NCBI RefSeq assembly: GCF_000974425.1
Contig: NZ_CP010429.1
Coordinates: forward strand, 3,224,001 to 3,288,000
From: Spirosoma radiotolerans
Lineage (GTDB): Bacteria; Bacteroidota; Bacteroidia; Cytophagales; Spirosomataceae
Length of the DNA stretch: 64,000 bases
Reading direction: 5' to 3'
Shown one piece after another: positions 12,237 to 58,833 of the stretch. The notes beneath the pieces were generated by a model. It was not told the origin of the DNA. It worked only from the letters and a program-made list of their open reading frames with translations, and did not search any database. The position numbers and the translations under genes were made by a program. Within the stretch, counting starts at the first letter, position 1. The number at the start of each line of letters is the position of its first letter.

Positions 12237-12312
12237 GAGTGAAAGAGCAAAAGAGCGAATGAGTGGTACTATCAACAGCAGTCCACTCATTCACTCTTTC
12301 GCTCTTTCACTC
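12237..12312. repeat. GAGY-GAAN tetranucleotide-period hairpin
   Basis: Left arm 12237-12266 and right arm 12283-12312 pair at 28 of 30 positions around a 16-base loop. The left arm is a string of tetramers (GAGT GAAA GAGC AAAA GAGC GAAT GAGT). It fills the gap between the DoxX-like gene stop (12311-12313, which the right arm overlaps) and the aroK start. Confidence 0.92.
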
Positions 12313-13489
12313 ATTTTACTTTTTCCAGTACCTCAGCCGCATTCGGCGTCGAATTAAAGTGCCATTTACCCCGTACGGTACCATTGCTTAGCAACCAGGT
12401 ACCTGGGTTCGAGCGCATGATCGTTTTCAGAACAGTAGCATCGGCTTTATAATAGGGCACACTTTCCAACTGAAACTCCTTGCGAAAGGCCTTGATTTCG
12501 TCGTCGCTGGTCGACGTCAGAATATAAGGTTTTACCATTGAGCCCTGCAGGCCTTCTACCAGTGCGCGAATAGCGGGCAAGCTACCGGCATCGATATCCT
12601 TGATATTTTTCACAATGATAAAGAGCTTATTACCAGCAAACGTTTCCTGCGTAAAGTCACCCTCATCATTCCAGATGCGGTAATCGGTTATCTTGGGTTT
12701 GGCATTCGGGTTCACCAAAACCATTTCTTTAAAAGTATAGCTCTGGTCGGTCGGGTACTGTTCGAACTCCGTTGTTTTGCCGCCTTTCTCCATCAAGTAC
12801 TTGTAGCGCAACGGCTCTGATGGTTTCATCTGGGCTGGAATGCTCTTGCCAACGGCATACGGCAACATGTCGATAGGCGGTAAAAACTGAACCGCATAGA
12901 TACCGAGTCCTATTGTGAATACAATCGTCAACCCGACCAGCCAGCCCGTGTTGCGGGAACGAAGGCGGTTTCGGTGACCAATGATAAACAGAATTAACAC
13001 CATCAGAACAATGTCTTTCCCAAAGGATGTCCAGGGTTTGAGTTTGATGGCATCGCCAAAACAACCACAGTCGGTCACGCGGTCGAAGTAAGCCGAATAA
13101 AACGTCAGGAACGTAAAGAACGTAATCAGGAAAAACAACAGCCAGACCGTGACTTTGGGTTTATAAGACGCCAGCAGGGCCACACCCAGAATAATTTCGG
13201 CGGCACAAAACAGCACCGACATCGCCAGTGTGAAGGGTACCAGCGCCATGAAGAAGTCGTGCATGAAGGGTAAATCCTGCGCGAAAACTTCGAAATACTC
13301 TTCAAACTTGATCTGTGTGCCAACAGGATCATTGAGTTTGATCAGGCCCGAAAAAATGAATATGATACCGACCAGAATTCGGGCGATACGGGCGGCAATC
13401 AACATGGGTGGTGTGCCGGTCTTAACTTTAGGTTGCGATGTTGTTGGGTTCATGAAGGTAACGCGGACGTCATGCCCGTCGGGTGTCAT
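12311..13489 (-). CDS. BT_3928-like membrane protein, DoxX/MauE plus thioredoxin-like domain
   Basis: This 392-aa protein has a DoxX/MauE-like N-terminal membrane domain with four helices (about residues 30-55, 75-105, 110-135, 145-165) and a fifth at about 180-200. The motif D-C-G-C-F-G-D follows the third helix and is the conserved cysteine pair of MauE/DoxX relatives. The C-terminal ~150 residues resemble a thioredoxin fold without a C-x-x-C. Such proteins are thought to act in periplasmic redox or thiol handling. The start ATG at 13489 overlaps the DUF1599 stop in ATGA, suggesting translational coupling; M13 (13453) is a possible alternative. The gene order folP, DUF1599, BT_3928-like is characteristic of Bacteroidota. 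Confidence 0.8.
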   Translation of the reverse strand: MTPDGHDVRVTFMNPTTSQPKVKTGTPPMLIAARIARILVGIIFIFSGLIKLNDPVGTQIKFEEYFEVFAQDLPFMHDFFMALVPFTLAMSVLFCAAEIILGVALLASYKPKVTVWLLFFLITFFTFLTFYSAYFDRVTDCGCFGDAIKLKPWTSFGKDIVLMVLILFIIGHRNRLRSRNTGWLVGLTIVFTIGLGIYAVQFLPPIDMLPYAVGKSIPAQMKPSEPLRYKYLMEKGGKTTEFEQYPTDQSYTFKEMVLVNPNAKPKITDYRIWNDEGDFTQETFAGNKLFIIVKNIKDIDAGSLPAIRALVEGLQGSMVKPYILTSTSDDEIKAFRKEFQLESVPYYKADATVLKTIMRSNPGTWLLSNGTVRGKWHFNSTPNAAEVLEKVK

Positions 13490-14055
13490 TTTTGTTGGCC
13501 GGACAGAATGTCCGCGTCACTGAGTTTAATCAAACAGAAAACGGCGTAGTTGATCATATCCATATAGTTGGCCTCTACGCCTTCCGAAACTAATGTCGTT
13601 CCCTGATTATCCTCAATCTGCTTCGTTCGAAGGAGCTTCATGAGAATGATATCCGTCATAGAACTGACCCGCATATCACGCCAGGCTTCACCGTAATCAT
13701 GATTTTTGGCAAACAGCAGATCAATAACCCGGCCAATTTCAGCATCATATAGCTTTTCAAGTTCACTGGTTGGAATGTCATTGCCAACCACCGTATTACC
13801 AGTCAACTGAATCTGAATCAGCGCCATCACACAGTAATTGATGATACCCACAAACTCAGGTTCGATCCCCTCTCCGACTAGGCTAACGCCCGTTTCCTGC
13901 AAGGTTCGAATGCGTTGCGCTTTAATGAAAATCTGATCGGTTATACTGGGCAGGCGCAGAATTCGCCAGGCGGTGCCATAGTCCTGGTTCTTTTTCAAAA
14001 ATAAATCTTTGCAGCGTTGGATAACCTGCCGATATTCGGATTCGGTATTTTGCAC
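13486..14055 (-). CDS. DUF1599 protein with an internal duplication
   Basis: This 189-aa soluble protein consists of two copies of the same ~80-residue helical unit. Unit 1 has C-K-D-L-F-L-K-K-N-Q-D-Y-G-T-A-W-R and G-I-I-N-Y-C-V-M-A-L-I-Q-I. Unit 2 has I-D-L-L-F-A-K-N-H-D-Y-G-E-A-W-R and D-M-I-N-Y-A-V-F-C-L-I-K-L. The K-N-x-D-Y-G-x-A-W-R signature is that of DUF1599 ('nucleotide modification associated domain 1'); its biochemical role is not settled. The only in-frame start is GTG at 14055; a TAA lies in frame upstream. It is divergent from folP and coupled to the next gene by ATGA. Confidence 0.88.
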   Translation of the reverse strand: MQNTESEYRQVIQRCKDLFLKKNQDYGTAWRILRLPSITDQIFIKAQRIRTLQETGVSLVGEGIEPEFVGIINYCVMALIQIQLTGNTVVGNDIPTSELEKLYDAEIGRVIDLLFAKNHDYGEAWRDMRVSSMTDIILMKLLRTKQIEDNQGTTLVSEGVEANYMDMINYAVFCLIKLSDADILSGQQK

Positions 14056-14121
14056 GGTTTTCAGTTTACAGTATTCGGTTTACCGTCGTTTGCAGGTTCG
14101 TTACAGTGCACCTAAAACCGT
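14054..14121. repeat. Heptad NGGTTTA-type repeat between divergent genes
   Basis: Heptamers CGGTTTT, CAGTTTA, CAGTATT, CGGTTTA and CCGTCG.. run from 14055 to ~14089, with a partly complementary AAAACCGTAAACC stretch at 14114-14126. Arms ACGGTTTT (14054-14061) and AAAACCGT (14114-14121) are complementary. This is a weaker member of the family at 23321-23397 and 26848-26935. The left end touches the GTG start of the DUF1599 gene. Confidence 0.6.
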
Positions 14122-14139
14122 AAACCAAAATCCTATTTT

Positions 14140-14982
14140 ATGCCGAAAGTTACGAAAAAAACGCTGAACTGCCGGGGGCGCCTTGTCGATTTGACCCAGC
14201 CCGCCGTCATGGGAATCCTGAACATAACCCCCGATTCTTTCTTTGCCGATAGCCGTGTGTCACTCAACAATACCGTTGCTACAGCCGAACGGATGCTACA
14301 GGACGGGGCCACGTTTCTGGATATAGGCGGCTATTCGACCCGGCCCGGTGCAGCAGAGGTCAGCCCTTCTGAAGAGGCCGATCGCGTATTACCCATCATT
14401 GAGGCTATCCTGGCGGCTTTCCCCACAGCCCTGATCTCGATTGACACCTTCAGAGCGTCGGTGGCCCGGCAGGCGGTAGCCTTGGGGGCGGTTCTGGTCA
14501 ACGACATTGCGGGGGGTACGTTGGACCCTGCCATGTTTGGCACTGTTGCTGAATTAGGCGTTCCTTATATACTGATGCACACACGCGGCACACCCCAAAC
14601 GATGCAGTCGATGGCGACCTATACGAATGTAACCACCGAAATCATAGACGAATTGGCCATTCGCCTAACCGAACTCCGATCTTTAGGGCACAAGGATATA
14701 ATTCTGGACCCCGGATTTGGCTTTGCCAAGACACCCACTCAAAATTTTGAACTCCTGCACTATCTGGACGATTTCAAGGTATTCGATGAACCAATCCTGG
14801 TAGGTCTCTCGCGCAAAACAACCATCTGGAAAACCTTGAAAATCAAAGCCGAAGATGCCTTAAATGGCACGACCGTTTTAAACACGGTGGCTCTCCTGAA
14901 AGGGGCCTCTATTCTACGCGTCCATGATGTCCGGGAGGCCGTAGAAGCCGTAAAACTCACTCAGCGATTAACTTTTTTTTAA
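14140..14982 (+). CDS. folP: Dihydropteroate synthase
   Basis: This 280-aa TIM-barrel enzyme condenses p-aminobenzoate with the pterin diphosphate in folate synthesis. It is the sulfonamide target. Visible motifs are M-G-I-L-N-I-T-P-D-S-F-F (pterin/diphosphate loop), D-I-G-G-Y-S-T-R-P-G-A (family S-T-R-P), S-I-D-T-F-R, V-N-D-I-A-G-G, M-H-T-R-G-T-P, D-P-G-F-G-F-A-K-T and V-G-L-S-R-K-T. ATG 14140 gives a normal N-terminus. It is divergent from DUF1599, a pairing usual in Bacteroidota. A short gap separates it from the tRNA-Lys gene. Confidence 0.96.
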   Translation: MPKVTKKTLNCRGRLVDLTQPAVMGILNITPDSFFADSRVSLNNTVATAERMLQDGATFLDIGGYSTRPGAAEVSPSEEADRVLPIIEAILAAFPTALISIDTFRASVARQAVALGAVLVNDIAGGTLDPAMFGTVAELGVPYILMHTRGTPQTMQSMATYTNVTTEIIDELAIRLTELRSLGHKDIILDPGFGFAKTPTQNFELLHYLDDFKVFDEPILVGLSRKTTIWKTLKIKAEDALNGTTVLNTVALLKGASILRVHDVREAVEAVKLTQRLTFF

Positions 14983-14989
14983 CATTCGC

Positions 14990-15020
14990 TTGCGCTTACA
15001 AAATCAAAACCTTACTTTTG
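14990..15020 (+). promoter_or_regulatory. Bacteroidota-type promoter of the tRNA-Lys gene
   Basis: TTG at 14990-14992 and TACTTTTG at 15013-15020 are separated by 20 bases. The -7 element is an exact TAnnTTTG. The mature tRNA begins 43 bases downstream, leaving a short 5' leader for RNase P. Confidence 0.7.
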
Positions 15021-15062
15021 CATTCCCAAACGACGAACAGCTGGTTTGTCGAACAGGAAAAT

Positions 15063-15138
15063 GATCTGGTAGCTCAGCTGGTAGAGCAATACACTTTTAA
15101 TGTATGGGTCCTGGGTTCGAATCCCAGCCGGATCACCA
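15063..15138 (+). tRNA. tRNA-Lys (anticodon TTT)
   Basis: The 76-base cloverleaf is complete. The acceptor stem is GATCTGG/CCGGATC (one T-G pair) and the D stem is GCTC/GAGC with a GG-containing loop. The anticodon stem ATACA/TGTAT carries the loop CTTTTAA, giving anticodon TTT. The variable loop has 5 bases and the T stem is CTGGG/CCCAG with loop TTCGAAT. The discriminator base is A, and CCA is encoded. Confidence 0.97.
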
Positions 15139-15745
15139 AAAAATTAAAGCCACTCAGTTGAGTGGCTTTTTTTATGTCGTTCAATCTATTTACCGGCCAT
15201 TTTTAATAGCTTATGCTAACCATTGCCTATACTTGCTTACCTTCAATTACTCGGCACAGCGCTTCTTTGCTTACTTGATGGGTTGGTACATGAGACAGTA
15301 TTGCCACTGGGCAAAGGCGAGCAAGGCAGGTATCCAGCCGATAGAACAAGGTTCTTTAAGGTTAACAAGTCAGCCTGCACAGTCAAATCGTACGTAAAGT
15401 TTATTGGATGACTAGTAACCTATGAAAATAGTTATTGACATTTAGCGCGATTCATTTCACAGGAGAGTTGGCCATAATTGATATATTCCAAGAACAATTA
15501 TAACCGAATTCATAATTAAGACCGTCTACTATTAAATTCCGGCAAAAGCGATTTTTGCCAAATTTTTTTAGTAGTATATTGCATGACTTTGTCACAAACG
15601 CCCGTCAGCCCGGCTACCATCTTCTGATTTAATTTATAGCCTGGGCTACCTTTTAATTTAGCTTTTCTCAATAATCGTCTCTGTTTTTTACGATTTTGGC
15701 AATCAAGATCTAGAAACAGCGACCTTACCCAACACTGTTACGACC
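15139..15745. other. Long intergenic region after tRNA-Lys
   Basis: These 607 bases separate the tRNA from gltB. The first 40 hold the tRNA terminator. The rest is AT-rich and has no recognised gene. Two overlapping short open frames (around 15104-15411) show no domain, no start context and mixed codon use. I looked for a direct repeat of the tRNA 3' end, which would mark an integrated element, and did not see one. The gltB promoter must lie here, but no clean TAnnTTTG was found (TGACTTTG near 15585 is one base off and lacks a spaced -33). Confidence 0.45.
15148..15174 (+). terminator. Rho-independent terminator of tRNA-Lys
   Basis: AGCCACTCA (15148-15156) and TGAGTGGCT (15159-15167) pair perfectly and are followed by seven T. 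Confidence 0.92.
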
Positions 15746-18700
15746 ATGTCTGATCAGGTTGACCAAACGGCGGGACTCTACCGCCCCGAGTTTGAACATG
15801 ATAACTGCGGTATCGGCTTTGTGGCCCATATCAAAGGCCGCAAGTCTCACAAAATTGTAGCGGATGCCCTCCAGATGCTTCGGCGTATGGAGCACCGGGG
15901 TGCCGTTGGTTCCGAGCCAAATTCTGGCGACGGTGCCGGGCTGCTTATCCAGATTCCGCACGAATTTTTTATTGATGAAACCCGCAAGCTCGGCGTTCAC
16001 TTACCACCCGCCCTCGAGTATGGCGTGGGGATGGTGTATTTTCCGAAAGACGTCTGGCTCCGTGAGGAATGCCGGGCAGTGCTGAACCGGAAAATGAAAA
16101 TGCTTGGTCTGGAGCTTCTTTGCTACCGGATTGTGCCGGTTAATAACAGTGACCTTGGCAACGGGTCCCGTTCGGCTGAACCGCAAATGGAGCAGGTATT
16201 TATCAAACGCCCGGCCGATGTTACCAACGCTGAAGACTTTGAGCGTAAACTGTACATTCTGCGTAATTACAGTACCCGCATCATTAATGAAACCATTGCC
16301 GGTGTAGATACATTTTACTTTTCGTCACTTTCGTGCCGCACAATTACCTATAAAGGTCAGTTAACGACCCTTCAGCTGGAACCCTACTTCCCGGACCTTC
16401 AGAATGAAGAGGTTGTTTCGGCGCTTGGCGTTGTCCATTCGCGCTTTTCGACCAATACGTTTCCATCGTGGAAACTAGCCCAGCCATTCCGGTACATTGC
16501 TCACAACGGTGAGATCAATACCGTGCGCGGCAACGTAAACTGGATGAAAGCCGCTGAAGGTCTCCTTGAGTCGGCCAAGTTTACGAAAGACGAAATGGAC
16601 ATGCTGCTGCCCATTTGCGATCAGCGTCAGTCCGACTCGGCAAACCTCGATAATGCCATTGAACTGCTTGTCATGAGCGGACGGTCGTTGCCGCACGTGA
16701 TGATGATGCTTGTTCCCGAAGCCTGGGATGGCAACGATCACATGGACCCCGTCCGGAAGGCGTTCTATGAATTTCACGCAGCACTGATTGAGCCCTGGGA
16801 TGGTCCGGCGTCAATTTCTTTCACGGATGGCCGCATTGTTGGAGCCACCCTCGACCGGAATGGCCTACGCCCATCGCGTTTCTGGGTGACCAACGACGAT
16901 ACTGTTATTATGGCCTCCGAGGTTGGGGTGCTCGATATTGATCCCGCCAAAGTGGTCTCTAAAGGTCGTCTGCAACCCGGCAAAATGTTCCTGGTCGATA
17001 TGGAACAGGGGCGGATTGTATCCGACGAAGAGATTAAAGAAGAAATATCGTCCCGCAAGCCCTATCAGGCATGGCTGGACGACAACAAAGTGCGGATTCA
17101 GGATCTGGAATCGCCCATTCGGACGTACAGTAACTACGATCCCGCAAAATTACTGCGGATGCAGCAGGCGTTCGGCTTCACATCTGAAGACCTGCGGATG
17201 ATTCTGGCGCCGATGGTGGAAACAGGGAAAGAAGCGCTTGGCTCTATGGGTACCGATGTGCCGCTGGCGGTGCTATCGGAACAGAGCCAGCACATGAGCC
17301 ACTATTTCAAACAGTTGTTCGCTCAAGTGACTAATCCACCGATTGACTCCATCCGCGAGCGGTCGATTATGTCGTTGATTTCGTTCGTTGGGGCAACGTA
17401 TAACCTTCTGAGCGAGTCGCCCAAGCATTGCCGTCAGGTGGAGCTGGATCAACCCGTATTGACGACGAAGGAGTTTGATAAACTTCGGTTCATTGATAAA
17501 CCTAACTTCCAGGCTAAAACCATCAACTGTTTATTTACAGCCGATGGGCAGGGAAAATCGTTAGAACGCGCTCTTGATCGTATTTGCCGGTATGCTGAAG
17601 ATGCAATTCAGGACGGGTATTCGATTCTGGTGCTATCCGACCGGGCTATCGACTCCAGCCACGCCCCGATTCCGTCGCTGCTGTCGACGTCTGCAATTCA
17701 CCACTACCTCATTCGTCAGGGATTACGGGGTAAGGTAGGTATTGTCGTTGAAGCGGGCGATGTTTGGGAAACACACCATGTGGCCACCCTTATCGGGTAT
17801 GGCGCGTCGGGAGTGAATCCGTACATGGCGTTTGAAACCATCGCCAATATGAAGGAGAAAGGGTTGCTACAGGTGGATTATGACCTGGATAAACTCTACA
17901 AGAATTACATCAAGGCCGTAAACGGCGAGCTACTCAAGATCTTCTCGAAGATGGGTATCTCTACCCTGCAATCATACCAGGGCGCGATGATTTTTGAGTG
18001 CCTCGGGTTGAACGAAGATGTCGTTAGCCGCTACTTTACGGGTACAGTATCGCGCATCGGCGGCATGGGTCTGGACGAAATTGCCCGCGAGATTCTAGTC
18101 CGTCACTGCGTGGCGTTCCCAGATATGCCGGTGTCGGCACCCCGACTGGAAGTAGGCGGTATTTATCAGTGGAAACAGCGGGGCGAAAAGCACATTTTCA
18201 ACCCGGACACTATCCACCTGCTTCAGCAATCGACGCAAAAGAACGATTACGCGATTTTCAAGAAATACTCCAAGCTGATTGACGATCAGTCGCAGAAAGC
18301 AATCACGCTGCGTGGTCTGCTGAAGTTTAAGAAGGGGGCCTCCGTTCCTCTGGAGGAAGTTGAGCCTATCGAAAGCATTTTCAAACGCTTCGCCACGGGA
18401 GCCATGTCCTTCGGTTCTATTTCATGGGAAGCGCACACCACCCTGGCCATTGCCATGAACCGCATCGGGGGCAAAAGCAATTCGGGCGAGGGTGGCGAAG
18501 ACGAGCTACGGTATACGCCCCTGGCCAATGGTGACAGCATGAATTCGGGTATTAAGCAGGTTGCCTCGGGGCGCTTTGGCGTAACGAGTTACTACCTGAC
18601 CAATGCGCGTGAGTTGCAGATTAAGATGGCGCAGGGCGCCAAACCCGGCGAAGGTGGTCAGTTACCTGGGTTTAAAGTCGATGACTGGATCGGCCGGACT

Positions 18701-20320
18701 CGCCACTCCACACCTGGTGTTGGCTTGATTTCGCCCCCTCCTCACCACGATATTTATTCGATTGAGGATTTGGCACAGCTTATTTCCGACCTCAAAAATG
18801 CCAACCGGGCTGCCCGTATTAGTGTCAAACTGGTGTCGGAAGCAGGCGTTGGTACCATTGCGGCTGGGGTGGCCAAAGCTCACGCCGATCACATCCTGAT
18901 CTCGGGTCACGATGGCGGTACGGGAGCCTCTCCCCTGTCGTCGATCCGCCACGCGGGTCTGCCGTGGGAACTGGGTCTGGCCGAAGCACACCAGACACTG
19001 GTTCGGAACAAGCTGCGTGGCCGTGTAACGGTGCAGGCTGATGGACAAATGCGCACTGGCCGTGATCTGGCGATTGCAGCCCTGCTAGGAGCCGAAGAAT
19101 TTGGTGTTGCCACGGCTGCACTGGTCGCAACGGGTTGTATCATGATGCGGAAATGCCATCTGAATACCTGCCCGGTGGGTGTAGCGACGCAGAACAAAGA
19201 ACTACGCGCGCTGTTTACAGGTAAGCCCGAGCACGTCGTTAATATGTTCACGTTCCTGGCTATGGAGCTGCGCGAAATTATGGCTGAGCTTGGCTTCCGC
19301 ACGATCAACGAAATGGTTGGTCAGGCACAGATGCTTGAGGTTCGCGATAATCTTCCACACTGGAAATACAAAAGGGTAAACCTGAATGCTCTGCTCTACA
19401 AAGAACCGACGAACCTCGATGTAGCGCTCTACAAGCAGGAAGAACAGAATCACTATCTGGACGACGTCCTCGACCGGAAACTGATTGAGGTAGCGCAACC
19501 AGCACTGTCCTCTGCCGAATCGGTTTATGGTGAATTTACCGTACAAAATATCGACCGAAGCATTGGCACTATGTTGTCCAATGAAATCTCGAAAGTGTAT
19601 GGCGGCCCTGGCCTACCCGACAGTACGATTCATATCAAACTGCGGGGAACCGCCGGTCAGAGCTTTGGTGCTTTCGCGACGGCCGGTATCAAACTGGAAC
19701 TTGAAGGCGATGCCAATGACTACTTTGGGAAGGGACTTTGTGGCGCTCAGTTGATTGTCTATCCCGACCGGACTGCTCAGTTCAAACCGGAAGAGAACAG
19801 CATCGTCGGTAACGTGACATTCTACGGAGCCACCTCGGGCGAAGCTTTCATTCGGGGAATGGCGGGCGAACGGTTCTGCGTCCGTAACTCCGGTGCTAAA
19901 GTTGTGGTGGAAGGCGTGGGCGATCACGGCCTCGAATACATGACGGGTGGGCTGGCCATCATTCTGGGACAAACGGGCCGCAATTTTGCTGCTGGTATGT
20001 CGGGTGGTGTGGCCTATGTTTACGATCAGGACGGCACCTTCGCGTCGAAAGTAAATCCCGAAATGGTGAACCTGGAGCAGCTCACCGGCGAAGATCAGGG
20101 CATCATCCGCGAATACGTCGAGAAGCACTTCCAGTACACGACCAGCAATGTTGCGCTCGCTCTTCTTGAGAACTGGAACGAGCAAATCCATCGGTTTGTG
20201 AAGGTCATGCCCGGCGATTTCAGCAAAGCGCTGGCCGGACGCGGCATCTCACTGGCAGAACAGATTCGTGATAAGAACATTGTGTATCAGGATATAACGG
20301 TTGATGTGACGCAGGGGTAA
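15746..20320 (+). CDS. gltB: Glutamate synthase, large (alpha) subunit
   Basis: This 1524-aa enzyme transfers the amide of glutamine to 2-oxoglutarate, giving two glutamates. Domains appear in order. The N-terminal class II amidotransferase has its nucleophile at Cys21 (H-D-N-C-G-I-G-F), so the first 20 residues form a cleaved propeptide. A central domain is followed by the FMN-binding synthase barrel (about 830-1220; S-G-E-G-G-E-D and P-G-E-G-G-Q-L-P). The 3Fe-4S ligands lie in G-C-I-M-M-R-K-C-H-L-N-T-C-P-V-G. The C-terminal GxGxG beta-helix (about 1250-1490) has repeated G-G-x-G motifs. Length is normal. gltD follows 206 bases downstream on the same strand, so the two subunits are co-oriented and probably co-expressed. 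Confidence 0.97.
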   Translation: MSDQVDQTAGLYRPEFEHDNCGIGFVAHIKGRKSHKIVADALQMLRRMEHRGAVGSEPNSGDGAGLLIQIPHEFFIDETRKLGVHLPPALEYGVGMVYFPKDVWLREECRAVLNRKMKMLGLELLCYRIVPVNNSDLGNGSRSAEPQMEQVFIKRPADVTNAEDFERKLYILRNYSTRIINETIAGVDTFYFSSLSCRTITYKGQLTTLQLEPYFPDLQNEEVVSALGVVHSRFSTNTFPSWKLAQPFRYIAHNGEINTVRGNVNWMKAAEGLLESAKFTKDEMDMLLPICDQRQSDSANLDNAIELLVMSGRSLPHVMMMLVPEAWDGNDHMDPVRKAFYEFHAALIEPWDGPASISFTDGRIVGATLDRNGLRPSRFWVTNDDTVIMASEVGVLDIDPAKVVSKGRLQPGKMFLVDMEQGRIVSDEEIKEEISSRKPYQAWLDDNKVRIQDLESPIRTYSNYDPAKLLRMQQAFGFTSEDLRMILAPMVETGKEALGSMGTDVPLAVLSEQSQHMSHYFKQLFAQVTNPPIDSIRERSIMSLISFVGATYNLLSESPKHCRQVELDQPVLTTKEFDKLRFIDKPNFQAKTINCLFTADGQGKSLERALDRICRYAEDAIQDGYSILVLSDRAIDSSHAPIPSLLSTSAIHHYLIRQGLRGKVGIVVEAGDVWETHHVATLIGYGASGVNPYMAFETIANMKEKGLLQVDYDLDKLYKNYIKAVNGELLKIFSKMGISTLQSYQGAMIFECLGLNEDVVSRYFTGTVSRIGGMGLDEIAREILVRHCVAFPDMPVSAPRLEVGGIYQWKQRGEKHIFNPDTIHLLQQSTQKNDYAIFKKYSKLIDDQSQKAITLRGLLKFKKGASVPLEEVEPIESIFKRFATGAMSFGSISWEAHTTLAIAMNRIGGKSNSGEGGEDELRYTPLANGDSMNSGIKQVASGRFGVTSYYLTNARELQIKMAQGAKPGEGGQLPGFKVDDWIGRTRHSTPGVGLISPPPHHDIYSIEDLAQLISDLKNANRAARISVKLVSEAGVGTIAAGVAKAHADHILISGHDGGTGASPLSSIRHAGLPWELGLAEAHQTLVRNKLRGRVTVQADGQMRTGRDLAIAALLGAEEFGVATAALVATGCIMMRKCHLNTCPVGVATQNKELRALFTGKPEHVVNMFTFLAMELREIMAELGFRTINEMVGQAQMLEVRDNLPHWKYKRVNLNALLYKEPTNLDVALYKQEEQNHYLDDVLDRKLIEVAQPALSSAESVYGEFTVQNIDRSIGTMLSNEISKVYGGPGLPDSTIHIKLRGTAGQSFGAFATAGIKLELEGDANDYFGKGLCGAQLIVYPDRTAQFKPEENSIVGNVTFYGATSGEAFIRGMAGERFCVRNSGAKVVVEGVGDHGLEYMTGGLAIILGQTGRNFAAGMSGGVAYVYDQDGTFASKVNPEMVNLEQLTGEDQGIIREYVEKHFQYTTSNVALALLENWNEQIHRFVKVMPGDFSKALAGRGISLAEQIRDKNIVYQDITVDVTQG

Positions 20321-23294: not shown

Positions 23295-23320
23295 AACTAA
23301 CCAAAGATAGGCAAAAACGG

Positions 23321-23397
23321 TATTCGGTTTACCGTTAACGGTTGGCTGACGCGTGAATTTCCAATGCATCAACCAACCGTTAACGGTAAACCGAATA
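23321..23397. repeat. Heptad NGGTTTA hairpin, perfect 25-bp arms
   Basis: Arms 23321-23345 and 23373-23397 are perfectly complementary around a 27-base loop. Reading from 23325, the left arm is the heptamers CGGTTTA, CCGTTAA, CGGTTGG. The element occupies most of the 115-base gap between the AraC-type gene stop (23410) and the DUF2461 start (23294). There is no T-tract. Confidence 0.93.
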
Positions 23398-23409
23398 CTA
23401 TAAACCTTC

Positions 23410-25977: not shown

Positions 25978-25992
25978 TAACGAGTGAACGTA

Positions 25993-26100
25993 CGAACGAG
26001 TGAATGAGCGAAAAGCAGGCCCACACCTGACTTTCGCTCATTCACTCGTTCGTTCCGCTTTTGCGGTCCGATTTCGCACGTTCGCTTATTCATGCTTTCA
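25993..26100. repeat. GAGY-GAAN tetranucleotide-period hairpin
   Basis: Arms 25993-26013 and 26032-26052 are perfectly complementary (21 bp, 18-base loop). A further degenerate tail of the same repeat type (TTCG CTTA TTCA, TTCA CTTA) continues to about 26100. It fills the gap between the aldehyde dehydrogenase stop and the EthD-like gene. Confidence 0.9.
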
Positions 26101-26454: not shown

Positions 26455-26850
26455 ATGACAACGCAAACCACTTCCCGTGTTGATGTCACTCCGGCAGCTG
26501 CTGAGGTAATCAATAAAGTTCGGGCAGAGCATGGCCCCCTGATGTTTCACCAAAGCGGGGGCTGCTGCGACGGCTCCTCACCCATGTGCTTTGCCAAAGG
26601 TGAGTTCCGAATTGGCCAGTCCGATATTTTGCTGGGGCAGATTGACGGATGCGACTTCTGGATGTCGAGCGATCAGTTCGAGTACTGGCAACATACGCAC
26701 CTCACCATCGACGTAACACCCGGACGTGGGGCGAGTTTCTCGCTTGAAATTCCGTTGGGTGTTCGGTTTTTGATTCGATCCCGGCTCTTTGAACCTGACG
26801 AGTTAGCGCACATGGCGCCCGTGCATGTCGGTCCGTTGGAGGAAATGTAG
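26455..26850 (+). CDS. DUF779 protein
   Basis: This 131-aa protein has the DUF779 hallmarks: M-F-H-Q-S-G-G-C-C-D-G-S-S-P-M-C near residue 30 and F-W-M-S-S-D-Q-F-E-Y-W-Q-H-T in the middle. It ends in the F-S-L-E-I-P-L-G-V-R-F-L-I-R-S-R-L-F motif. DUF779 genes are commonly next to aldehyde dehydrogenases, as here; the clustered Cys residues suggest metal or thiol chemistry, but the activity is not established. I choose ATG 26455 over GTG 26416, which would overlap the end of the EthD gene. The stop codon is the first triplet of the inverted repeat at 26848. Confidence 0.88.
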   Translation: MTTQTTSRVDVTPAAAEVINKVRAEHGPLMFHQSGGCCDGSSPMCFAKGEFRIGQSDILLGQIDGCDFWMSSDQFEYWQHTHLTIDVTPGRGASFSLEIPLGVRFLIRSRLFEPDELAHMAPVHVGPLEEM

Positions 26851-26935
26851 TTTACGGTTAGTGGTTTATGGTTGCCGACGCGAAGCTATACAGGCGTCAG
26901 CCAACTGTAAACCTCAAACCACTAACCATAAACTA
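26848..26935. repeat. Heptad GGTTTAC-type hairpin
   Basis: Left arm 26848-26868 and right arm 26915-26935 pair at 19 of 21 positions. The left arm continues as heptamers GGTTAGT, GGTTTAT, GGTTGCC; the right side carries the mirror units. The left arm starts at the DUF779 stop codon. The heptamers are related to those at 23321-23397 and 14054-14126. Confidence 0.88.
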
Positions 26936-26966
26936 CAAACCACAAACTAACTCCCTGATCATCAGG

Positions 26967-29798: not shown

Positions 29799-29890
29799 TT
29801 TTTGTCATCCCGACAAAAGAGGGATTTTAAGGTATCCTTACTTGAGTATCAGGATACGTCAAGATCCCTCCTTTGTCGGGATGACAAAAA
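29799..29890. repeat. GTCATCCCGAC-type inverted repeat between convergent genes
   Basis: Left arm 29799-29825 and right arm 29864-29890 pair at 26 of 27 positions. Inside are a second hairpin (GTATCCT with AGGATAC) and a near-palindrome in each arm (TTTTGTCATCCCGACAAAA). It separates the 3' ends of the SUOX-like gene and the kinase gene. Confidence 0.9.
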
Positions 29891-32623: not shown

Positions 32624-32704
32624 GTAGAGACGCGACCCTTCGCGTCTCCTGGGCATCAGCAAAAAAACCATCCGGTCAGGAGACGCGAAGGGCCGCGTCT
32701 CTAC
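32624..32704. repeat. AGACGCG double-palindromic hairpin
   Basis: Arms 32624-32651 and 32677-32704 pair at 27 of 28 positions. Each arm is itself a palindrome (GAGACGCGA...TTCGCGTCTC), so four stems are possible. The right arm covers the stop codon (32701-32703) of the permease gene; the left arm begins 11 bases after the start of the response-regulator gene on the other side of the gap. Confidence 0.92.
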
Positions 32705-33873: not shown

Positions 33874-33948
33874 GAATGAGCGAAAGAGTGAATGAGTGAA
33901 TGAGTGAATGGATGGTTGATGCGTCAGCTATTCACTCATTTGCTCGTT
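33874..33948. repeat. GAGY-GAAN tetranucleotide-period hairpin
   Basis: The repeat runs as GAAT GAGC GAAA GAGT GAAT GAGT GAAT GAGT GAAT from ~33874. The inner arms 33899-33909 and 33930-33940 pair perfectly (11 bp). Outer pairing to 33948 is imperfect (16 of 19 against 33875-33893). The right arm overlaps the stop codon of the permease at 33947. Confidence 0.85.
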
Positions 33949-35204: not shown

Positions 35205-35290
35205 GAATGAGTGAGTGATGGAATGAGTGAATGGTTGGACAGAACGGCGGGATAGATATTATTCTATCACTCACCCATTCTATCATTCAA
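35205..35290. repeat. GAGY-GAAN tetranucleotide-period hairpin
   Basis: Arms 35205-35224 and 35261-35280 pair at 18 of 20 positions; the repeat character extends to about 35290. It fills the gap between the ABC ATPase stop (35294) and the first permease start (35194). Confidence 0.88.
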
Positions 35291-49504: not shown

Positions 49505-49533
49505 GGCGTTTGCTATTGTGTTTAGTGAAGTAG

Positions 49534-52307: not shown

Positions 52308-52319
52308 AGGGTCGATAGC

Positions 52320-54935
52320 TTACTCAATGCGCAAACTCTTCACTGGGTCCAGTAAGGCCGCTTTGATGCTTTGAAAACTGACCGTGAGCAACGTAACCGC
52401 CAGAGCGCCTATTCCCGTCAGGGCGAAGATCCACCACGACAGTTCCGTGCGGTATTCGTACTTCTGCAGCCAGTTCGAGAGCAGGTAGTACGCGATTGGC
52501 GTGGCCAGGATAAAGGCGATACCAACCAGATAAATAAATTCTTTACACAACAGCCCCCAGACATTGAGTATCGAGGCTCCCAGCACTTTGCGAACCCCAA
52601 TCTCCTTCGTACGTCGCTCGGCCATGAACGATGCCAGACCAAATAAACCCAGGCAGGAGATAAAAATGGCCAGACCCGCGAAAATGCCAGCCAGTTTTCC
52701 AATCAGCGATTCCAGTTTAAACTTAGCGGCATAGCTCACATCGGCAAACTGGTAACTGTAAGCATAAGACGGATTGTGTTTATTGAACAGAGCCGTCATC
52801 TGTGTGAGAGCGTCCTGCGTTGCCAGACGAGGAGCGATACGGTATAACAGAACGTTGAGCGGGCCAGGTGTACAGACGAACATAGTTGGATCAGCTTTGG
52901 CAAAGGGCGATTCCATTAAGGCATCTTTCGCTACGCCGACAATCCTTAGTGGTCTACCTTGCCAGGTGATGAGCTGATCAACGGGATTCAGCAATCGAAA
53001 CCGCCTGATGGCTGCTTCGTTGAGGATAACGCTGGTTGTGTCGTTTTCACCGCTAAAATCCCGGCCCTGCACTAACGTCATGCCTACGGTTTTGAAATAG
53101 TCATCGGCAACCCGAATAATCCCCATTTCTACCGTCTCACCCGCACTTTTGCCGGGCCATTTGTCTAAATCGGAATGCCACCAGATTTCGGTAGCCGGGC
53201 TCGATGACTGTGAGACATTTTCAGCAATCCCTTTTTTGATTAACTCGTCTTTTAGAATAGTGAAATTCTGACCTAACTCACTGTTCATGTTGGTCATCAG
53301 CAGTCGGTTCACATTATACCCAGTCGGCCTATTCTTTGCGAATTGAATTTGCTTGAAAACGATAACGGCACTCAGTATCAAGGCAATGGAGCAACTAAAC
53401 TGCGCGACCACCAACACTTTGCGAGGCCAGGAAGCGGATTTCCCTACTTGCATCGTGCCTTTCAGAACCTTTACGGGCTGAAAGGAGGACAGATAAAAGG
53501 CAGGTAAACTACCGGCCAGCAAAGCCGTAATCAAGAGGCAGCCTAGCATAGCCGTCCAGAACCCTGCGTTTGCGTAAGGAATAGCTAGGTGACCATCAAT
53601 CAACGCGTTGAATACTGGCAGCAGGAGTTGTACTAAGAGCAATGAAAACAAGAAGGCCACTACCGTAAGCAGGAATGATTCCGTCAGAAATTGGCTGATG
53701 AGCTGCTGCCGTAGCGAACCAACTGATTTTCTGATGCCCACTTCTTTTGCTCGCTTGGCAGAACGGGCGGTAGTCAGATTGACAAAGTTGATGCAGGCAA
53801 TCAGGACGACCAGAACGCCAATGATGCTAAACATCCGTACGTATTCAATGAATCCACCCGTTTCTTTCCCGTTCGTATACGTTGAGTACAGATGCCAATT
53901 TTGTAAAGGTTGCAGGATAACCACCGAATTCATGGCATTGAGATTATTCCTCTCCGTATGTTCAATCAGCGCGATTTTGCCAGCTATCTGCGCGTAGGAT
54001 ACGCCGGGTTTGAGTTTAACGAAGAGTTGATATGAGTTATCGCCAAAGCTTCCGCTGCGCGCCATTCGCACGTCGTTTACTGTTGCTTCATAATAACTGA
54101 ACGGAACGAGGTAGTTAAACTGCAGCGATGAGTTGGTGGGTAGATCTTGCAGAATACCCGTTACTTTTAAGTCGTTCTGATTGTCAAAGCGCACAATCTT
54201 CCCCATTGCGTTTTCGCTTCCAAAAAGCGCTTTGGCTGTCGATTCGGTCAGTACAATTGAATAGGGGTCTTTCAGCGCCATACCAGCCTCTCCTTCGAGC
54301 AGTGGATAGTGAAACATGTTCAGAAAGTCGCCCCCAATTTGGGCACCGCGTAAGTAAATCTTTTTGTCGCCTACCTTGAGTCCATGAGATCCCATATAAT
54401 CGCTTTCGGCGACGTGTTCAATTTCTGGAATCTGATTGCGCAGGGCATTGGCTAGCTTAAGCGATGTCGACGTAAAGGTGAGCGTGTCGCCATTGCTGTT
54501 AAAATTTCGTCTTACCTGATACAGTTGCTGAAAGCTGGGAAGAAACCGGTCATACGAGTACTCATGGTGTATCCACAGGCCAATGAGCATGGCAACCGCC
54601 ATGCCAACCGATAGCCCCGCAATGTTGATGAACGAGTAGCCCTTTTGCTTAAGTAGGTTGCGCCAGGCAATTTTCAAATAGTTTCGTAGCATGTCTGTAT
54701 GTCTTGGATTAGGGTATACGGATGGTTTACGCTTGATGATAGAGGGTCGCACGTAGGCTAGCACTTCGCGCCAGTAGGTAAGGCGGGCCCTGCGTTCGCC
54801 CAGTCGCTTCACCCGCAGCGCGTAGCGTTCATGCAGGTCCCCGAGCACTTCTTCCCGCAGGTGAGGAGCCACCAGCTTGTTGAGCCACTTATCGAGCCAT
54901 TTGGGCGGTGATGTATTTTGTTGGGTAGGTTCCAT
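52320..54935 (-). CDS. FtsX-type ABC permease with prefix domain, 871 aa (first of pair)
   Basis: This 871-aa protein has the same layout as its downstream neighbour. The prefix domain (about 10-80; P-P-K-W-L-D-K-W-L, E-V-L-G-D-L-H-E-R-Y-A-L) precedes two FtsX halves. A-K-E-V-G-I-R-K-S-V-G-S comes after the first set and T-K-E-I-G-V-R-K-V-L-G-A after the second. It ends D-P-V-K-S-L-R-I-E. It follows padR after 12 bases, so the regulator and both permeases form one unit. No ATPase is nearby; such permeases are common in this group and their energy source is unclear. They may use an ATPase encoded elsewhere. Confidence 0.88.
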   Translation of the reverse strand: MEPTQQNTSPPKWLDKWLNKLVAPHLREEVLGDLHERYALRVKRLGERRARLTYWREVLAYVRPSIIKRKPSVYPNPRHTDMLRNYLKIAWRNLLKQKGYSFINIAGLSVGMAVAMLIGLWIHHEYSYDRFLPSFQQLYQVRRNFNSNGDTLTFTSTSLKLANALRNQIPEIEHVAESDYMGSHGLKVGDKKIYLRGAQIGGDFLNMFHYPLLEGEAGMALKDPYSIVLTESTAKALFGSENAMGKIVRFDNQNDLKVTGILQDLPTNSSLQFNYLVPFSYYEATVNDVRMARSGSFGDNSYQLFVKLKPGVSYAQIAGKIALIEHTERNNLNAMNSVVILQPLQNWHLYSTYTNGKETGGFIEYVRMFSIIGVLVVLIACINFVNLTTARSAKRAKEVGIRKSVGSLRQQLISQFLTESFLLTVVAFLFSLLLVQLLLPVFNALIDGHLAIPYANAGFWTAMLGCLLITALLAGSLPAFYLSSFQPVKVLKGTMQVGKSASWPRKVLVVAQFSCSIALILSAVIVFKQIQFAKNRPTGYNVNRLLMTNMNSELGQNFTILKDELIKKGIAENVSQSSSPATEIWWHSDLDKWPGKSAGETVEMGIIRVADDYFKTVGMTLVQGRDFSGENDTTSVILNEAAIRRFRLLNPVDQLITWQGRPLRIVGVAKDALMESPFAKADPTMFVCTPGPLNVLLYRIAPRLATQDALTQMTALFNKHNPSYAYSYQFADVSYAAKFKLESLIGKLAGIFAGLAIFISCLGLFGLASFMAERRTKEIGVRKVLGASILNVWGLLCKEFIYLVGIAFILATPIAYYLLSNWLQKYEYRTELSWWIFALTGIGALAVTLLTVSFQSIKAALLDPVKSLRIE

Positions 54936-54947
54936 ACGAAATGCCTG

Positions 54948-55283
54948 TTAGCTCCACTTCAGTATGGTTTGTGGGACAATACGATCCCACAACCGATTCC
55001 GAACGGCCCGTACCTCGCTCAGTACCCGGCCGCCCAAGGGCGTAACGGTAAACAGGCGTTTGCGTCGCCCACCCCGCTCAGCGGTTGCTTCACCCAACAG
55101 CGAAGTCAGATAGCCTTTCTGTTCCAGCCGCTGAAGGGCCGCATGAACAGCTCCCGTACTGACCGAGTTGCCCGTTTCCTGCTCCAGCTCTTCCGCAATC
55201 ACCACCGAATACGCCGTCGGCGAAAGGGCCGCCACTGCCAGCAAAACCACCTCTTCAAATTCGCCTAAATCACTCCGACGCAT
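54948..55283 (-). CDS. PadR-family transcriptional regulator
   Basis: This 111-aa winged-helix protein has the PadR core: L-G-E-F-E-E-V-V-L-L-A-V, A-Y-S-V-V-I-A-E-E-L-E, S-T-G-A-V-H-A-A-L-Q-R-L-E-Q-K-G-Y-L, then R-R-K-R-L-F-T-V-T-P-L-G. It is of the short type with a reduced C-terminal helix. The frame opens at 55352, but the sequence before ATG 55283 has no conserved start. It is directly followed by the two permeases, whose expression it probably controls. Confidence 0.9.
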   Translation of the reverse strand: MRRSDLGEFEEVVLLAVAALSPTAYSVVIAEELEQETGNSVSTGAVHAALQRLEQKGYLTSLLGEATAERGGRRKRLFTVTPLGGRVLSEVRAVRNRLWDRIVPQTILKWS

Positions 55284-55357
55284 GGAATTAGCTCTTAAGA
55301 ATATACGTTGTGTTTTATTTCCTCTATTTCTGTATGTCAAATGCCTTGCCAAACTAC

Positions 55358-55392
55358 AAAAAAGGCCACTCCATGGTGGAGTGGCCTTTTTT
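55358..55392 (-). terminator. Rho-independent terminator of the RND efflux operon
   Basis: Perfect 15-bp stem (55358-55372 with 55378-55392, GGCCACTCC/GGAGTGGCC) flanked by A6 and T6, with a 5-base loop. It can act in both directions; on the minus strand it lies downstream of the RND pump gene. Confidence 0.92.
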
Positions 55393-55499
55393 AAGGTAAT
55401 CCAAAGCTGGTATATCGTCCAGAAACGGACACTTTCCGTACGTTTCTGGACAGACGAATGAAGCTATCTTGCTTCTATTCGGCTTAGCTATGCTCTACG

Positions 55500-58400
55500 T
55501 TAATCATGATTTTGGCCGTTGGCAGGTACAGCCTGAGCAACCGGTCTGGCTGGCTCCTGGGGCTTTTCGTCCTTCTTTGCGTTCTCCTTCAATTTTTCAA
55601 GCCCTTTTTTGCCATACGCAAGTTTCGAGATGGCGACGTACAGGACTGGTACGACGAAAATAGCCAGCGAAGTCGCAGCCAGCATACCGCCTAACACCGT
55701 TCGGCCAATGGTAGCCCGGGCAACACCCCCTGCTCCTGTGGCTAGTGCCAGTGGGAATACCCCCAAAATGAACGCCAGCGACGTCATTAAAATCGGACGC
55801 AAGCGCAGGCGAACCGCTTCAATGGTCGACTCCAGCAAATCCTCACCTTTATCGACCCGCTCCTTAGCAAACTCCACGATCAGAATGGCATTTTTTGCCG
55901 CCAGACCAATCAGGGTAATTAACCCAATCTGCGCATAAACGTTATTCGTCAAGTACGGAAAAATAATCAGTGCGGTAATAGCCCCCAAAGCACCAATCGG
56001 CACTGACAGTAAGACCGAAAAAGGCACCGACCAGCTTTCGTATAAAGCCGCCAGAAACAAGAACACGAAGCCAATCGACAGCATGAATATATAAATAGAA
56101 CTGCTGCCGGCGTTGATCTCTTCGCGGCTCAAGCCCCCGAAATCATAGGCATACCCGGCGGGCAACACTTTAGCCGCCACTTCGCGCAGGGCGTCGTTGG
56201 CCTGACTGGTACTGTACCCCGGCTTGGCTCCCCCATTTAGTTCCACCGAACGGAACAGGTTAAAGTGTGAGATCAGTGGGGCATTCTCAATAACGCTGGT
56301 TTTGATCACTGTGCTGATAGGCACCAACTGACCCGCCCCATTGCGAACATAATATTGGTTAAGTGCTTTAATGTCGGCCCGGTACATGGTATCCGCCTGC
56401 GCCACAACCCGGAATTTCCGACCGTAAATAATAAAGTCGTTCACGTATTGGCTACCCAGCAGCGTCTGCATGGTGGTGTACACCGAACTAACTGAAATCC
56501 CCAGCTTCTTGCATTTATCCCGATCGACATCCACCCGGTAGGCCGGTGATTTGGCGGTAAAATAGGTAAAGGCACGGGAAATTTCGGGGCGCTTATTGGC
56601 CTCCACCAGGAAATTCTGGACCACGTTGTCAAACGCCCGTACATCGTCGTTGGATTCGCGCTGCTGAATCTCGAAGGTAAAACCGGACGATTGACCCAGA
56701 CCCGGAATAGCGGGTGGTTGCAGCACCTGTGGACGGGCATCGTTCAAACCAGCCAATGCTTTTTGCAGCTTCACAACCAGTGAGTCGGCCTGCATATTCC
56801 GTTCCTTGCGTTCTTCCCAGGGTTTCAACTGCATGAACACCGTACCACTATTCGACTTGGATGCGAAGGTGATGGCGTTCAAGCCACCCAGGGCCGCGAA
56901 GTGAGCCACATACGGTTGCTGTTTCAAAATACCCATCACTTTGTTGAGTACTTCAAGGCTACGCGTTGTCGAAGCCGCTTCGGGAATTTCGTATGTAACA
57001 ATCAGACGGCCTTCATCTTCCGTCGGAATGAACCCAGTTGGTTTCGCCCGGAACAACAATCCGGTTCCAACATACACCACAATGAGCCCGACGATGACCA
57101 GCGGAGTTGCTTTGATCAGTCGTTGGACCCCATTCGAATAGGCAGTGGTAACCCGTTCGAACCATTGATTGAACTTATAGAAAAACTTGTTCAATCCCGT
57201 TGCTTTCTCATCGATATGCATGGGGCGCAGGAGCAACGTACACAAAGCCGGGGTAAGTGACAGGGCCACGAATGCCGAAATCAACACAGAAACGGCAATG
57301 GTAATGGCAAACTGCTGATAGAGTCGGCCGACAATGCCCGGAATGAATCCAACCGGCACGAATACAGCGGCCAGAATCAGAGCAATGGCGATTACCGGCG
57401 CCGAAATTTCGCGCATAGCTTCCCGGGTAGCCTCTTTAGGTGTCATGCCTTTGTCGATGTTAACCTGGACGGCCTCCACCACCACAATCGCATCATCCAC
57501 CACAATACCGATGGCCAGTACGAATGCAAAAAGTGTTAATGTGTTAATCGTAAACCCGAGCGGCACAAACAAGGCGAATGTACCGACGATAGACACTGGA
57601 ATAGCCAACAGCGTAATCAGCGTAGCTCGCCAGCTTTGCAGGAACAGGAAAACTACCAGAATAACCAGGCCCAACGCTTCGAGTAGCGTTTCGACCACCT
57701 CGCCAATGGATACCTGAATAACCGATACCGATTCGAACGGCACTACGTATTCAATATCTTTGGGGAAGGTCTTTTTCAGGTTGTCCATGGCTGCATAAAC
57801 GCCCTTCGCTGTTTCAAGCGCATTACTGCCCGGCAACTGATACACAAGCAGATACGAAGCGCGTTTGCCATCAACAAATGAGTTACTGGCGTAGGAGAAC
57901 TTGCCCAATTGCACCCGGGCTACGTCTGACAGATAAACCAACGATCCTTTGGACGGATCGCTGCGGACGATAATCTTCCGAAAGTCGTCTTCCTTACTGA
58001 GTCGGCTATTGGTAAAAACTGAGTATTCAAAAGCCTGGGACGCTGGCTGGGGCGACGCGCCCACAGACCCACCGGCAACCTGCAAGTTTTGTTCCTGTAA
58101 AGCGGCTACCACATCATCGGGTGTCAGGCCTAACTGTGCCAGCCGGTCTGGTTTGATCCAGATCCGCATACTGAAATCGTCGGCCCGGCTGAAAATATCC
58201 CCCACACCCGGCACCCGCAACAGCGCATCCCGGATATAAATGTTGGTGTAGTTATCCAGGAACGACACATTGTGGGTTCCTTTTGGCGAATACATAGCCA
58301 CCAGCATAAACAGCGATGGGTTCCGTTTACGAACCACAACACCAAGACGGGTAACTTCCTGGGGCAATTGCGGCTGTGCAATACCGACGCGGTTCTGCAC

Positions 58401-58721
58401 ATCGAGGGCGGCAATGTTTACGTCGGTGCCCACTTTGAACGTCACGTTCATGGTCATCCGACCGTCATTGGTAGCGTTGGTCTGCACATAGTCCATACCT
58501 GGTGTACCATTCACCTGGGTTTCAATAGGGGTGGCAACGGTTTGTTCCACCGTTTGGGCATCGGCTCCGGTATAGGTGCCGGTTACCTGAACCACCGGGG
58601 GTGTAATGTCCGGATACTGGCTGACAGGTAAGCTTAACAGGGCCAGTACGCCCATGACAACGATCACGATAGACGCGACGATGGCGGTAACTGGCCGATT
58701 TATAAATATTTCTGCGAACAT
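55500..58721 (-). CDS. RND efflux pump, inner-membrane transporter (HAE1/AcrB-type)
   Basis: This 1073-aa proton-driven pump has the RND architecture: N-terminal helix, porter domain, helices 2-6, a second large periplasmic part and helices 8-12. The charge relay Asp-Asp is in G-I-V-V-D-D-A-I-V-V-V-E (TM4, ~residues 405-416). Motif A (G-x-x-L-x-x-x-x-x-P-x-x-x-F-x-P) is represented by V-F-V-P-V-G-F-I-P-G. The ends I-N-R-P-V-T-A-I-V-A and the short hydrophilic C-terminal tail (K-P-Q-E-P-A-R-P) are usual. It exports drugs, detergents or dyes with the adaptor and TolC genes immediately upstream. Confidence 0.96.
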   Translation of the reverse strand: MFAEIFINRPVTAIVASIVIVVMGVLALLSLPVSQYPDITPPVVQVTGTYTGADAQTVEQTVATPIETQVNGTPGMDYVQTNATNDGRMTMNVTFKVGTDVNIAALDVQNRVGIAQPQLPQEVTRLGVVVRKRNPSLFMLVAMYSPKGTHNVSFLDNYTNIYIRDALLRVPGVGDIFSRADDFSMRIWIKPDRLAQLGLTPDDVVAALQEQNLQVAGGSVGASPQPASQAFEYSVFTNSRLSKEDDFRKIIVRSDPSKGSLVYLSDVARVQLGKFSYASNSFVDGKRASYLLVYQLPGSNALETAKGVYAAMDNLKKTFPKDIEYVVPFESVSVIQVSIGEVVETLLEALGLVILVVFLFLQSWRATLITLLAIPVSIVGTFALFVPLGFTINTLTLFAFVLAIGIVVDDAIVVVEAVQVNIDKGMTPKEATREAMREISAPVIAIALILAAVFVPVGFIPGIVGRLYQQFAITIAVSVLISAFVALSLTPALCTLLLRPMHIDEKATGLNKFFYKFNQWFERVTTAYSNGVQRLIKATPLVIVGLIVVYVGTGLLFRAKPTGFIPTEDEGRLIVTYEIPEAASTTRSLEVLNKVMGILKQQPYVAHFAALGGLNAITFASKSNSGTVFMQLKPWEERKERNMQADSLVVKLQKALAGLNDARPQVLQPPAIPGLGQSSGFTFEIQQRESNDDVRAFDNVVQNFLVEANKRPEISRAFTYFTAKSPAYRVDVDRDKCKKLGISVSSVYTTMQTLLGSQYVNDFIIYGRKFRVVAQADTMYRADIKALNQYYVRNGAGQLVPISTVIKTSVIENAPLISHFNLFRSVELNGGAKPGYSTSQANDALREVAAKVLPAGYAYDFGGLSREEINAGSSSIYIFMLSIGFVFLFLAALYESWSVPFSVLLSVPIGALGAITALIIFPYLTNNVYAQIGLITLIGLAAKNAILIVEFAKERVDKGEDLLESTIEAVRLRLRPILMTSLAFILGVFPLALATGAGGVARATIGRTVLGGMLAATSLAIFVVPVLYVAISKLAYGKKGLEKLKENAKKDEKPQEPARPVAQAVPANGQNHD

Positions 58722-58741
58722 GAGTCAGAGAGTGAAAGAGC

Positions 58742-58833
58742 GAACGAGCAAAAGATGGAAAGAGTGAATCGCCTGAACAGAGTGAATTGGGTACTTACTG
58801 CTTCCATTCACTCCTTCCATCTTTCGCTCGTTC
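58742..58833. repeat. GAGY-GAAN tetranucleotide-period hairpin
   Basis: Arms 58742-58769 and 58806-58833 pair at 26 of 28 positions; the repeat character starts at ~58724 and ends ~58840. Units include GAGC GAAC GAGC AAAA GATG GAAA GAGT GAAT. It fills the 124-base gap between the adaptor stop (58846) and the pump start (58721). Confidence 0.9.

Follow-up and report, generated by a model that had tools for sequence, protein, structure and literature searches.

Repeat-armed hairpins between co-directional genes of Spirosoma radiotolerans and other Bacteroidota: probable members of a class of inserts built like 23S rRNA intervening sequences

The intervening sequences (IVSs) found in bacterial 23S rRNA have complementary ends that form a stable stem-loop, optionally carry in the loop an open reading frame (ORF) for a PF05635 (S23/IVP) protein, and are present sporadically among related organisms. 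In the literature covered, IVSs and their protein are treated within rRNA, and to our knowledge no role has been agreed for them. IVSs in rRNA are cut by RNase III and can lose the ORF, as in one strain whose S23p ORF has a 176-bp deletion (both from the available part of PMC4990558), and PF05635 is described as resembling Avd, the accessory protein of diversity-generating retroelements (available part of PMC10053308). Here we describe five hairpins with arms of degenerate repeats in a 64,000-nt stretch of the Spirosoma radiotolerans genome (contig NZ_CP010429.1, positions 3,224,001 to 3,288,000; hereafter the window). We think it fairly probable that they belong, as members without an ORF, to a class of IVS-like inserts that reside in transcribed spacers and above all between co-directional genes of operons. 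The observations behind this reading are the location of the hairpins, a signature common to different arm sequences, the varied states found at one and the same gap, the span from stop to start codon, and a turnover of the arms in which pairing is kept.

The likeness to rRNA IVSs concerns several traits. Complementary ends forming a stable stem-loop are found in the five window hairpins and in 39 of 62 PF05635 loci; the optional loop ORF, which none of the five window copies has, is present for example at L241 and L242; presence is sporadic among relatives; and ORF loss has a parallel here in locus L302. Unlike rRNA IVSs, the hairpins described here lie in spacers of protein genes, none of them in an rRNA helix, their arms consist of degenerate repeats rich in G, an ORF is missing from most copies, and cleavage by RNase III is assumed by analogy. 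They are not rRNA IVSs, because the defining rRNA location fails, but they have the same build and are linked to them through the same protein family. A stable mRNA fold directly 3' of the stop codon is also a property of the ribosome termination structure (RTS; PMC7518266); in our survey (see below) the median distance from stop codon to stem was 3 nt (n = 34 repeat-armed hairpins in co-directional gaps). In the part of that account available, however, RTS denotes a tendency to fold and has no repeats, whereas here a discrete element reaches to the next start and is present or absent between species. Bacterial stem-loop repeat families are likewise dispersed intergenic palindromes, but they are families of sequences (available part of PMC2267715), whereas here the order of the repeat units, and even the type of unit ("dialect"), varies from copy to copy.

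The five hairpins (first five rows of the table) are all located between protein-coding genes that share a direction, and three are within evident operons, one coding for an ABC ATPase, two MacB-type permeases and an outer-membrane efflux protein, the other for a membrane fusion protein and an AcrB-type pump; the genes flanking the remaining two are co-directional without evident partnership. In mRNA folding, each of the five hairpins was more stable than all of its 200 dinucleotide shuffles. Runs of at least four GA[GA]N units occur six times in the window, compared with a mean of 0.08 and a maximum of 1 in 50 third-order Markov sequences, and for the stricter pattern GARNGAGYGARNGAGYGARN the single-contig genome of 7.03 Mb has 54+41 matches, 95 against none for the reversed control. 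Searched with Rfam at gathering scores, the whole window yielded one tRNA and nothing else. Thus the sequence-only reading, which had listed these five hairpins, called the copy at 33874 the weaker one and proposed a pattern scan with a shuffle check, was right that they are present and far beyond chance. Its description of the arms as GAGY/GAAN units holds for most copies, which mainly alternate GAGY and GAAW; the hairpin at 35205 has a different dialect. Two more hairpins of the window, in co-directional gaps, belong to the same class by their arm type, and a further dialect is found at the window edge.

Table. Repeat-armed hairpins of the window (positions in the window)
Feature	Position	Strand	Arms and complementarity	Fold z	Context
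Hairpin, GAGY/GAAN	12237..12312	-	12237-12266/12283-12312, 93%	-12.4	between MauE-domain gene and shikimate kinase gene (both -); stop-to-start span, distance to stop -2, to start 8
Hairpin, GAAC/GAGT/GAAT	25992..26053	+	25992-26013/26032-26053, 22/22	-9.3	3' of aldehyde dehydrogenase gene, 5' of unnamed gene; about 72 nt left between stem and called start of next gene
Weak hairpin, GAGY/GAAN	33874..33948	-	33891-33914/33925-33948, 79%	-4.4	separates two MacB-type permease genes
Hairpin, GAAT/GATA/GAGT	35205..35280	-	35205-35224/35261-35280, 90%	-3.1	between ABC ATPase gene and first MacB-type permease gene
Hairpin, GAGY/GAAN	58735..58840	-	58735-58769/58806-58840, 89%	-9.0	between membrane fusion protein gene and AcrB-type gene
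Hairpin, GGTTTATGG dialect	26846..26949	+			co-directional gap
Hairpin, GGTTTACGG dialect	23320..23398	-			co-directional gap
Hairpin, GGATGTA-type repeats	532..643		77-79%		window edge

A survey of gaps in several genomes bore out the idea that the hairpins are a dispersed class found beside unrelated genes. It covered 0.86 Mb of this genome (G000) and 0.4 Mb from each of four relatives, and applied one rule throughout to hairpins in gaps of 30-400 nt, those with periodic arms being called repeat-armed. In these segments 34 repeat-armed hairpins were in co-directional, one in convergent and one in divergent gaps, compared with 111, 70 and 8 for the other hairpins (Fisher p 1.5e-5); the four relatives form two related pairs, thus a few hairpins are counted twice, and G000 alone gives 24, 1 and 1. 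The periodicity rule was passed by 4.4% of shuffled arms and by 16% of the observed ones, which means that perhaps ten of the 36 repeat-armed calls are false. The window's first MacB-type protein matched 29 named loci (among them 13 from Spirosoma, 6 from Dyadobacter, 3 from Larkinella), and in 28 named loci the same rule detected repeat-armed hairpins 30 times in 204 co-directional gaps, five times in 37 convergent gaps and never in the 36 divergent ones. The five convergent copies, which mostly span the distance from stop to stop, led us to drop strict confinement to co-directional gaps; the hairpins belong to transcribed spacers, mostly, though not exclusively, between co-directional genes.

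The GAGY/GAAN tetramer is not the essence of the element, since hairpins of the same kind are formed in these gaps by other dialects too. The dialects include GAGY-GAAW, GGTTTAYGG, GGATGTA, GATTGAAT and GATGAAG, and have three features in common: degenerate periodic arms, a G-rich and C-poor 5' arm, and a span from approximately the stop codon to just before the start codon. Where a co-directional gap with a repeat-armed hairpin was 50-130 nt long (23 cases), the mean net length outside the hairpin was 17.7 of 90.5 nt, and the median loop length of repeat-armed hairpins was 19.5 nt. The 5' arm had more G than C in 31 of 34 ORF-less repeat-armed hairpins of the survey and in 30 of 30 from the named loci, whereas non-repeat hairpins had no such polarity (G>C in 51 and C>G in 48 of 111 in the survey, 21 and 25 of 46 in the named loci). 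Reading the other strand leaves the polarity of a hairpin unchanged, hence the G-rich 5' arm is a property of the element and not of gene direction. The GAGY pattern was found in all 36 genomes of the genus, with 1 to 293 matches each, but only in 15 of 395 evenly drawn Bacteroidota genomes, this genome among them, and in some of the 15 the matches are simple tandem runs, which match the control pattern too.

The link to IVSs came to light in the gap that separates the ABC ATPase gene from the first MacB-type gene (ABC-Mac1) in Rhabdobacter. This gap is 659 nt long and contains a gene that matches PF05635 (23S_rRNA_IVP, E 3.6e-27) and is flanked by repeat arms. The genome of S. radiotolerans has three PF05635 genes, each with co-directional neighbours and with repeat arms that can be made out by eye, in the GAGY, GGTTTAYGG and GATGAGTGAA dialects; two of the three reach the threshold of the arm score, the exception being L240. 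PF05635 matches were found in 35 of 36 genomes of the genus and in 116 of 148 genomes of the phylum. We analysed the best matches, 32 from the genus and 30 from the phylum, which are neither a random sample nor all copies; the profile located all 62, the better of two hits being taken where a locus had more than one. Flanking inverted arms scoring at least 12.5 were detected at 39 of the 62 loci (genus 19/32, phylum 20/30), and at these 39 the arms were periodic in 33 cases, with the 5' arm G-rich in 37, tied in two and C-rich in none. The same score was reached by only 3 of 336 other small co-directional genes (a control from Spirosoma only; the run that gave this set located 53 of the 62 loci, 31 of them at threshold). 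Compared with their own shuffles, 21 of the 30 phylum loci exceeded all 30. The view that these hairpins belong to no described family therefore missed their tie to the protein of 23S rRNA intervening sequences.

Both neighbours were co-directional at 44 of 56 callable PF05635 loci, compared with 276 of 539 small genes, and the downstream genes include what we take to be members of core operons, such as a respiratory-chain subunit and thiolases. A tree of PF05635 sequences, built from 109 columns only, clusters by insertion site (11 changes, where the least possible is 10 and the shuffled mean 27.8), thus the insertions look old. The gap at a GMC-oxidoreductase gene contains a PF05635 gene in 7 of 35 genomes. 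In 20 further genomes this gap contained one armed remnant with the middle deleted (L302), two other hairpins, 7-19 nt in nine cases, and longer sequence without a hairpin at score 10 in seven cases, one gap (L321) being unparsed and left out. The solved structure nearest to the PF05635 protein is 2gsc (E 2e-9).

Different states of one site were also found when orthologous gaps were compared by one rule: 23 between the genes of the membrane fusion protein and the AcrB-type pump (MFP-AcrB), 30 ABC-Mac1 gaps and 30 gaps between the two MacB-type genes (Mac1-Mac2), 83 in total. A hairpin bridged the gap in 18, 18 and 13 cases, respectively (49/83), with a median of 8-16 nt outside it, and the gap was not longer than 20 nt in 0, 4 and 6 cases (10/83); the Mac1-Mac2 gap of L103, scored as 19 nt through a partial alignment, holds a bridging hairpin, hence the true numbers are 50 and 9. 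The 49 bridging 5' arms include 47 that are distinct within their own gap, 36 that are periodic and 48 with more G than C. In L107, L110 and L120 the stop codon is inside the stem, and the stem ends 2-3 nt upstream of the start codon. Bridging hairpins occur in Larkinella and Dyadobacter as well. We also observed that at three Dyadobacter loci (L229-L231) the loop of the ABC-Mac1 hairpin is approximately 85-103 nt long and mostly alike across species, whereas Spirosoma loops change fast, and that both gaps of the MacB operon of L102 have the loop GCTGGATCACT and most arm units in common, as though one had been copied into the other. One locus titled Flavobacterium sp. SUN052 (L217) encodes a MacB-type protein 82% identical to that of the window, and the label looks wrong.

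The proposal that arm-to-arm identity is maintained stood in part. For hairpins of co-directional gaps in general, compared in two species pairs, 25 double changes were complementary and 3 were not, beside 59 single changes; the double changes included 8 double transversions and 17 double transitions. Read in the mRNA sense, single changes gave G-U 24 times and A-C 11 times in co-directional gaps, compared with 7 and 7 in convergent ones. In L082 and L083 the arms, judged by eye, differ by one paired change and the loop is largely different. In the repeat-armed type from the named loci, alignment failed in 47 of 66 comparisons of related loci, the arms being mostly replaced as a whole and not base by base; compensation is thus demonstrated mainly for the other hairpins. 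In the 19 repeat-armed comparisons that aligned, double changes were complementary 23 times and non-complementary 8 times, beside 89 single changes; these numbers are confounded by the effect of low complexity on the alignment, and we rejected the claim of compensatory change specific to repeat-armed hairpins, the alignable cases being few. In the Mac1-Mac2 gaps of the related loci L102, L107 and L108 the changes seen by eye were single, not paired, which speaks against tight maintenance there.

The favoured reading, that of IVS-like inserts without an ORF, would work as follows. An element would have a degenerate repeat arm rich in G, then a loop and a complementary C-rich arm, and a minority would carry in the loop a gene for the PF05635 four-helix-bundle protein, mostly in operon direction. 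In the transcript a long double-stranded stem may close the spacer and bring stop and start codon within about 10-20 nt of each other, for which reason the insert might be tolerated. Long stems are typical substrates of RNase III, and by analogy with 23S rRNA IVSs this stem is probably cut. Re-initiation drops steeply with distance, as far as the available part of PMC10666635 goes, thus closure would soften the harm of an insert of 80-100 nt, or serve coupling; insulation, the opposite of coupling, has been proposed for stems after stop codons (available part of PMC7518266). ORF-bearing insertions would be old and inherited at their site, and later the ORF would be lost, the arms rewritten or the element deleted. 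The constant G-rich 5' arm suggests that the arms are written by a directional, templated process.

Several observations weigh against this reading. Convergent gaps are not exempt, since 5 of 37 in the named loci hold repeat-armed hairpins; 23 of the 62 PF05635 loci, including L240, have no arms at threshold; and this genome has three PF05635 genes, compared with 26 repeat-armed hairpins in 0.86 Mb. L302 is the sole intermediate with a deleted ORF, and 24 of the 83 orthologous gaps (5, 8 and 11 in the order given above) are longer and have no bridging hairpin at threshold. The analysis brought out no insertion mechanism or target duplication for the proposed inserts. Whole-arm replacement, which is also the oddest result, limits the claim of base-by-base maintenance.

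It is possible, although we consider it rather unlikely, that the stems are made by the host: selection would favour a stem in the interval from stop to start codon, for coupling, insulating or processing the cistrons, and would recruit pairable low-complexity sequence for it, and PF05635 genes would enter secondarily. The change of dialects at one gap while pairing persists, the excess of complementary double changes and the G-U bias in the mRNA sense, absent from convergent gaps, all agree with this, as does the report that stems right after stop codons govern re-initiation (available part of PMC7518266). On the other hand, 34 of the 83 orthologous gaps have no bridging hairpin and the GMC-oxidoreductase gap is often stemless too, a plain stem needs neither strict G-rich 5' polarity nor periodicity, and the signature is common with PF05635 elements. 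This last association also makes it improbable that the hairpins are functionless by-products of mutation, in which degenerate repeats arise by slippage and, during replication, one arm serves as the fold-back template from which the other is copied. Low-complexity arms, their replacement as a whole, the double transversions beside the transitions and the repeat-armed hairpins of some convergent gaps would fit such an origin; the tight stop-to-start span and the rarity in divergent gaps would not.

We regard it as very unlikely that the hairpins are intrinsic terminators or attenuators within operons. The stems do follow stop codons, and in convergent gaps they span from stop to stop, but, and this is the chief point, they separate genes that belong together and extend to the next start, and their loops are long. 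A T-rich tail was found in 3 of 34 repeat-armed hairpins; this test is weak, because of the presumed terminators (non-repeat hairpins in convergent gaps) only 7 of 70 have such a tail by the same rule. Just as slight is the chance of a DNA transposon family similar to miniature inverted-repeat transposable elements (MITEs) or repetitive extragenic palindromes (REPs), the latter being dispersed intergenic palindromes that form sequence families. The dispersal of the hairpins, the loop and arm units common to two gaps of the L102 operon, and the commonest 7-unit word, which occurs 3 times compared with 0.25 expected, point in that direction. However, the 62 GAGY/GAAN runs have no common consensus, there are several dialects, and no common terminal sequence was seen, although no search was aimed at transposase genes. 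We rejected one mobile consensus sequence because unit order is mostly unique among the 62 runs.

The literature search, which covered mainly titles and the openings of abstracts and was thin on subscription journals, found no description of mRNA spacers in which repeat-armed hairpins go with PF05635 genes. The build is known from IVSs, and its setting in mRNA spacers appears to be new. We tentatively suggest a wider hypothesis, which may well prove too bold: Bacteroidota might have phylum-wide, mRNA-borne intervening sequences that enter operons between stop and start codons, some of them encoding an Avd-like PF05635 protein, with templated rewriting that always places a G-rich repeat 5' and its complement 3', so that pairing and polarity would be inherited and the sequence would not. 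If the proposed reading is true, a class of inserts of the same build, frequent across Bacteroidota, has been overlooked in mRNA spacers. It would offer many natural replicates for studying the role of the protein, the origin of the inserts and the tolerance or use of long stems by operons, and would account for some of the unusual low-complexity sequence in the spacers of such genomes.

The apical motif GGCTGACGC was considered as a signature of the class and rejected: in this genome it is commoner in gaps than expected from its coding rate, yet convergent and divergent gaps contain it as well, in either sense, and it is absent from the sampled gaps of genomes G018 and G001. In the gaps of G000, G007 and G010 GCTGACGC is found above the frequency predicted from coding sequence, often close to hairpin tips. 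Other palindromes were also noticed. In a convergent gap of the window (29799-29890) a TTTTTGTCATCCCGAC... hairpin resembles the dispersed palindrome TGTCATTCCGACGAAGGAGGAATCTT, found several times in the sampled segments. A hairpin with GAGACGCGA arms occupies the gap 3' of the second MacB-type gene (32624-32704), and similar GAGACGC hairpins, at 309418 of segment B and in G007, indicate a second, non-periodic palindrome family.

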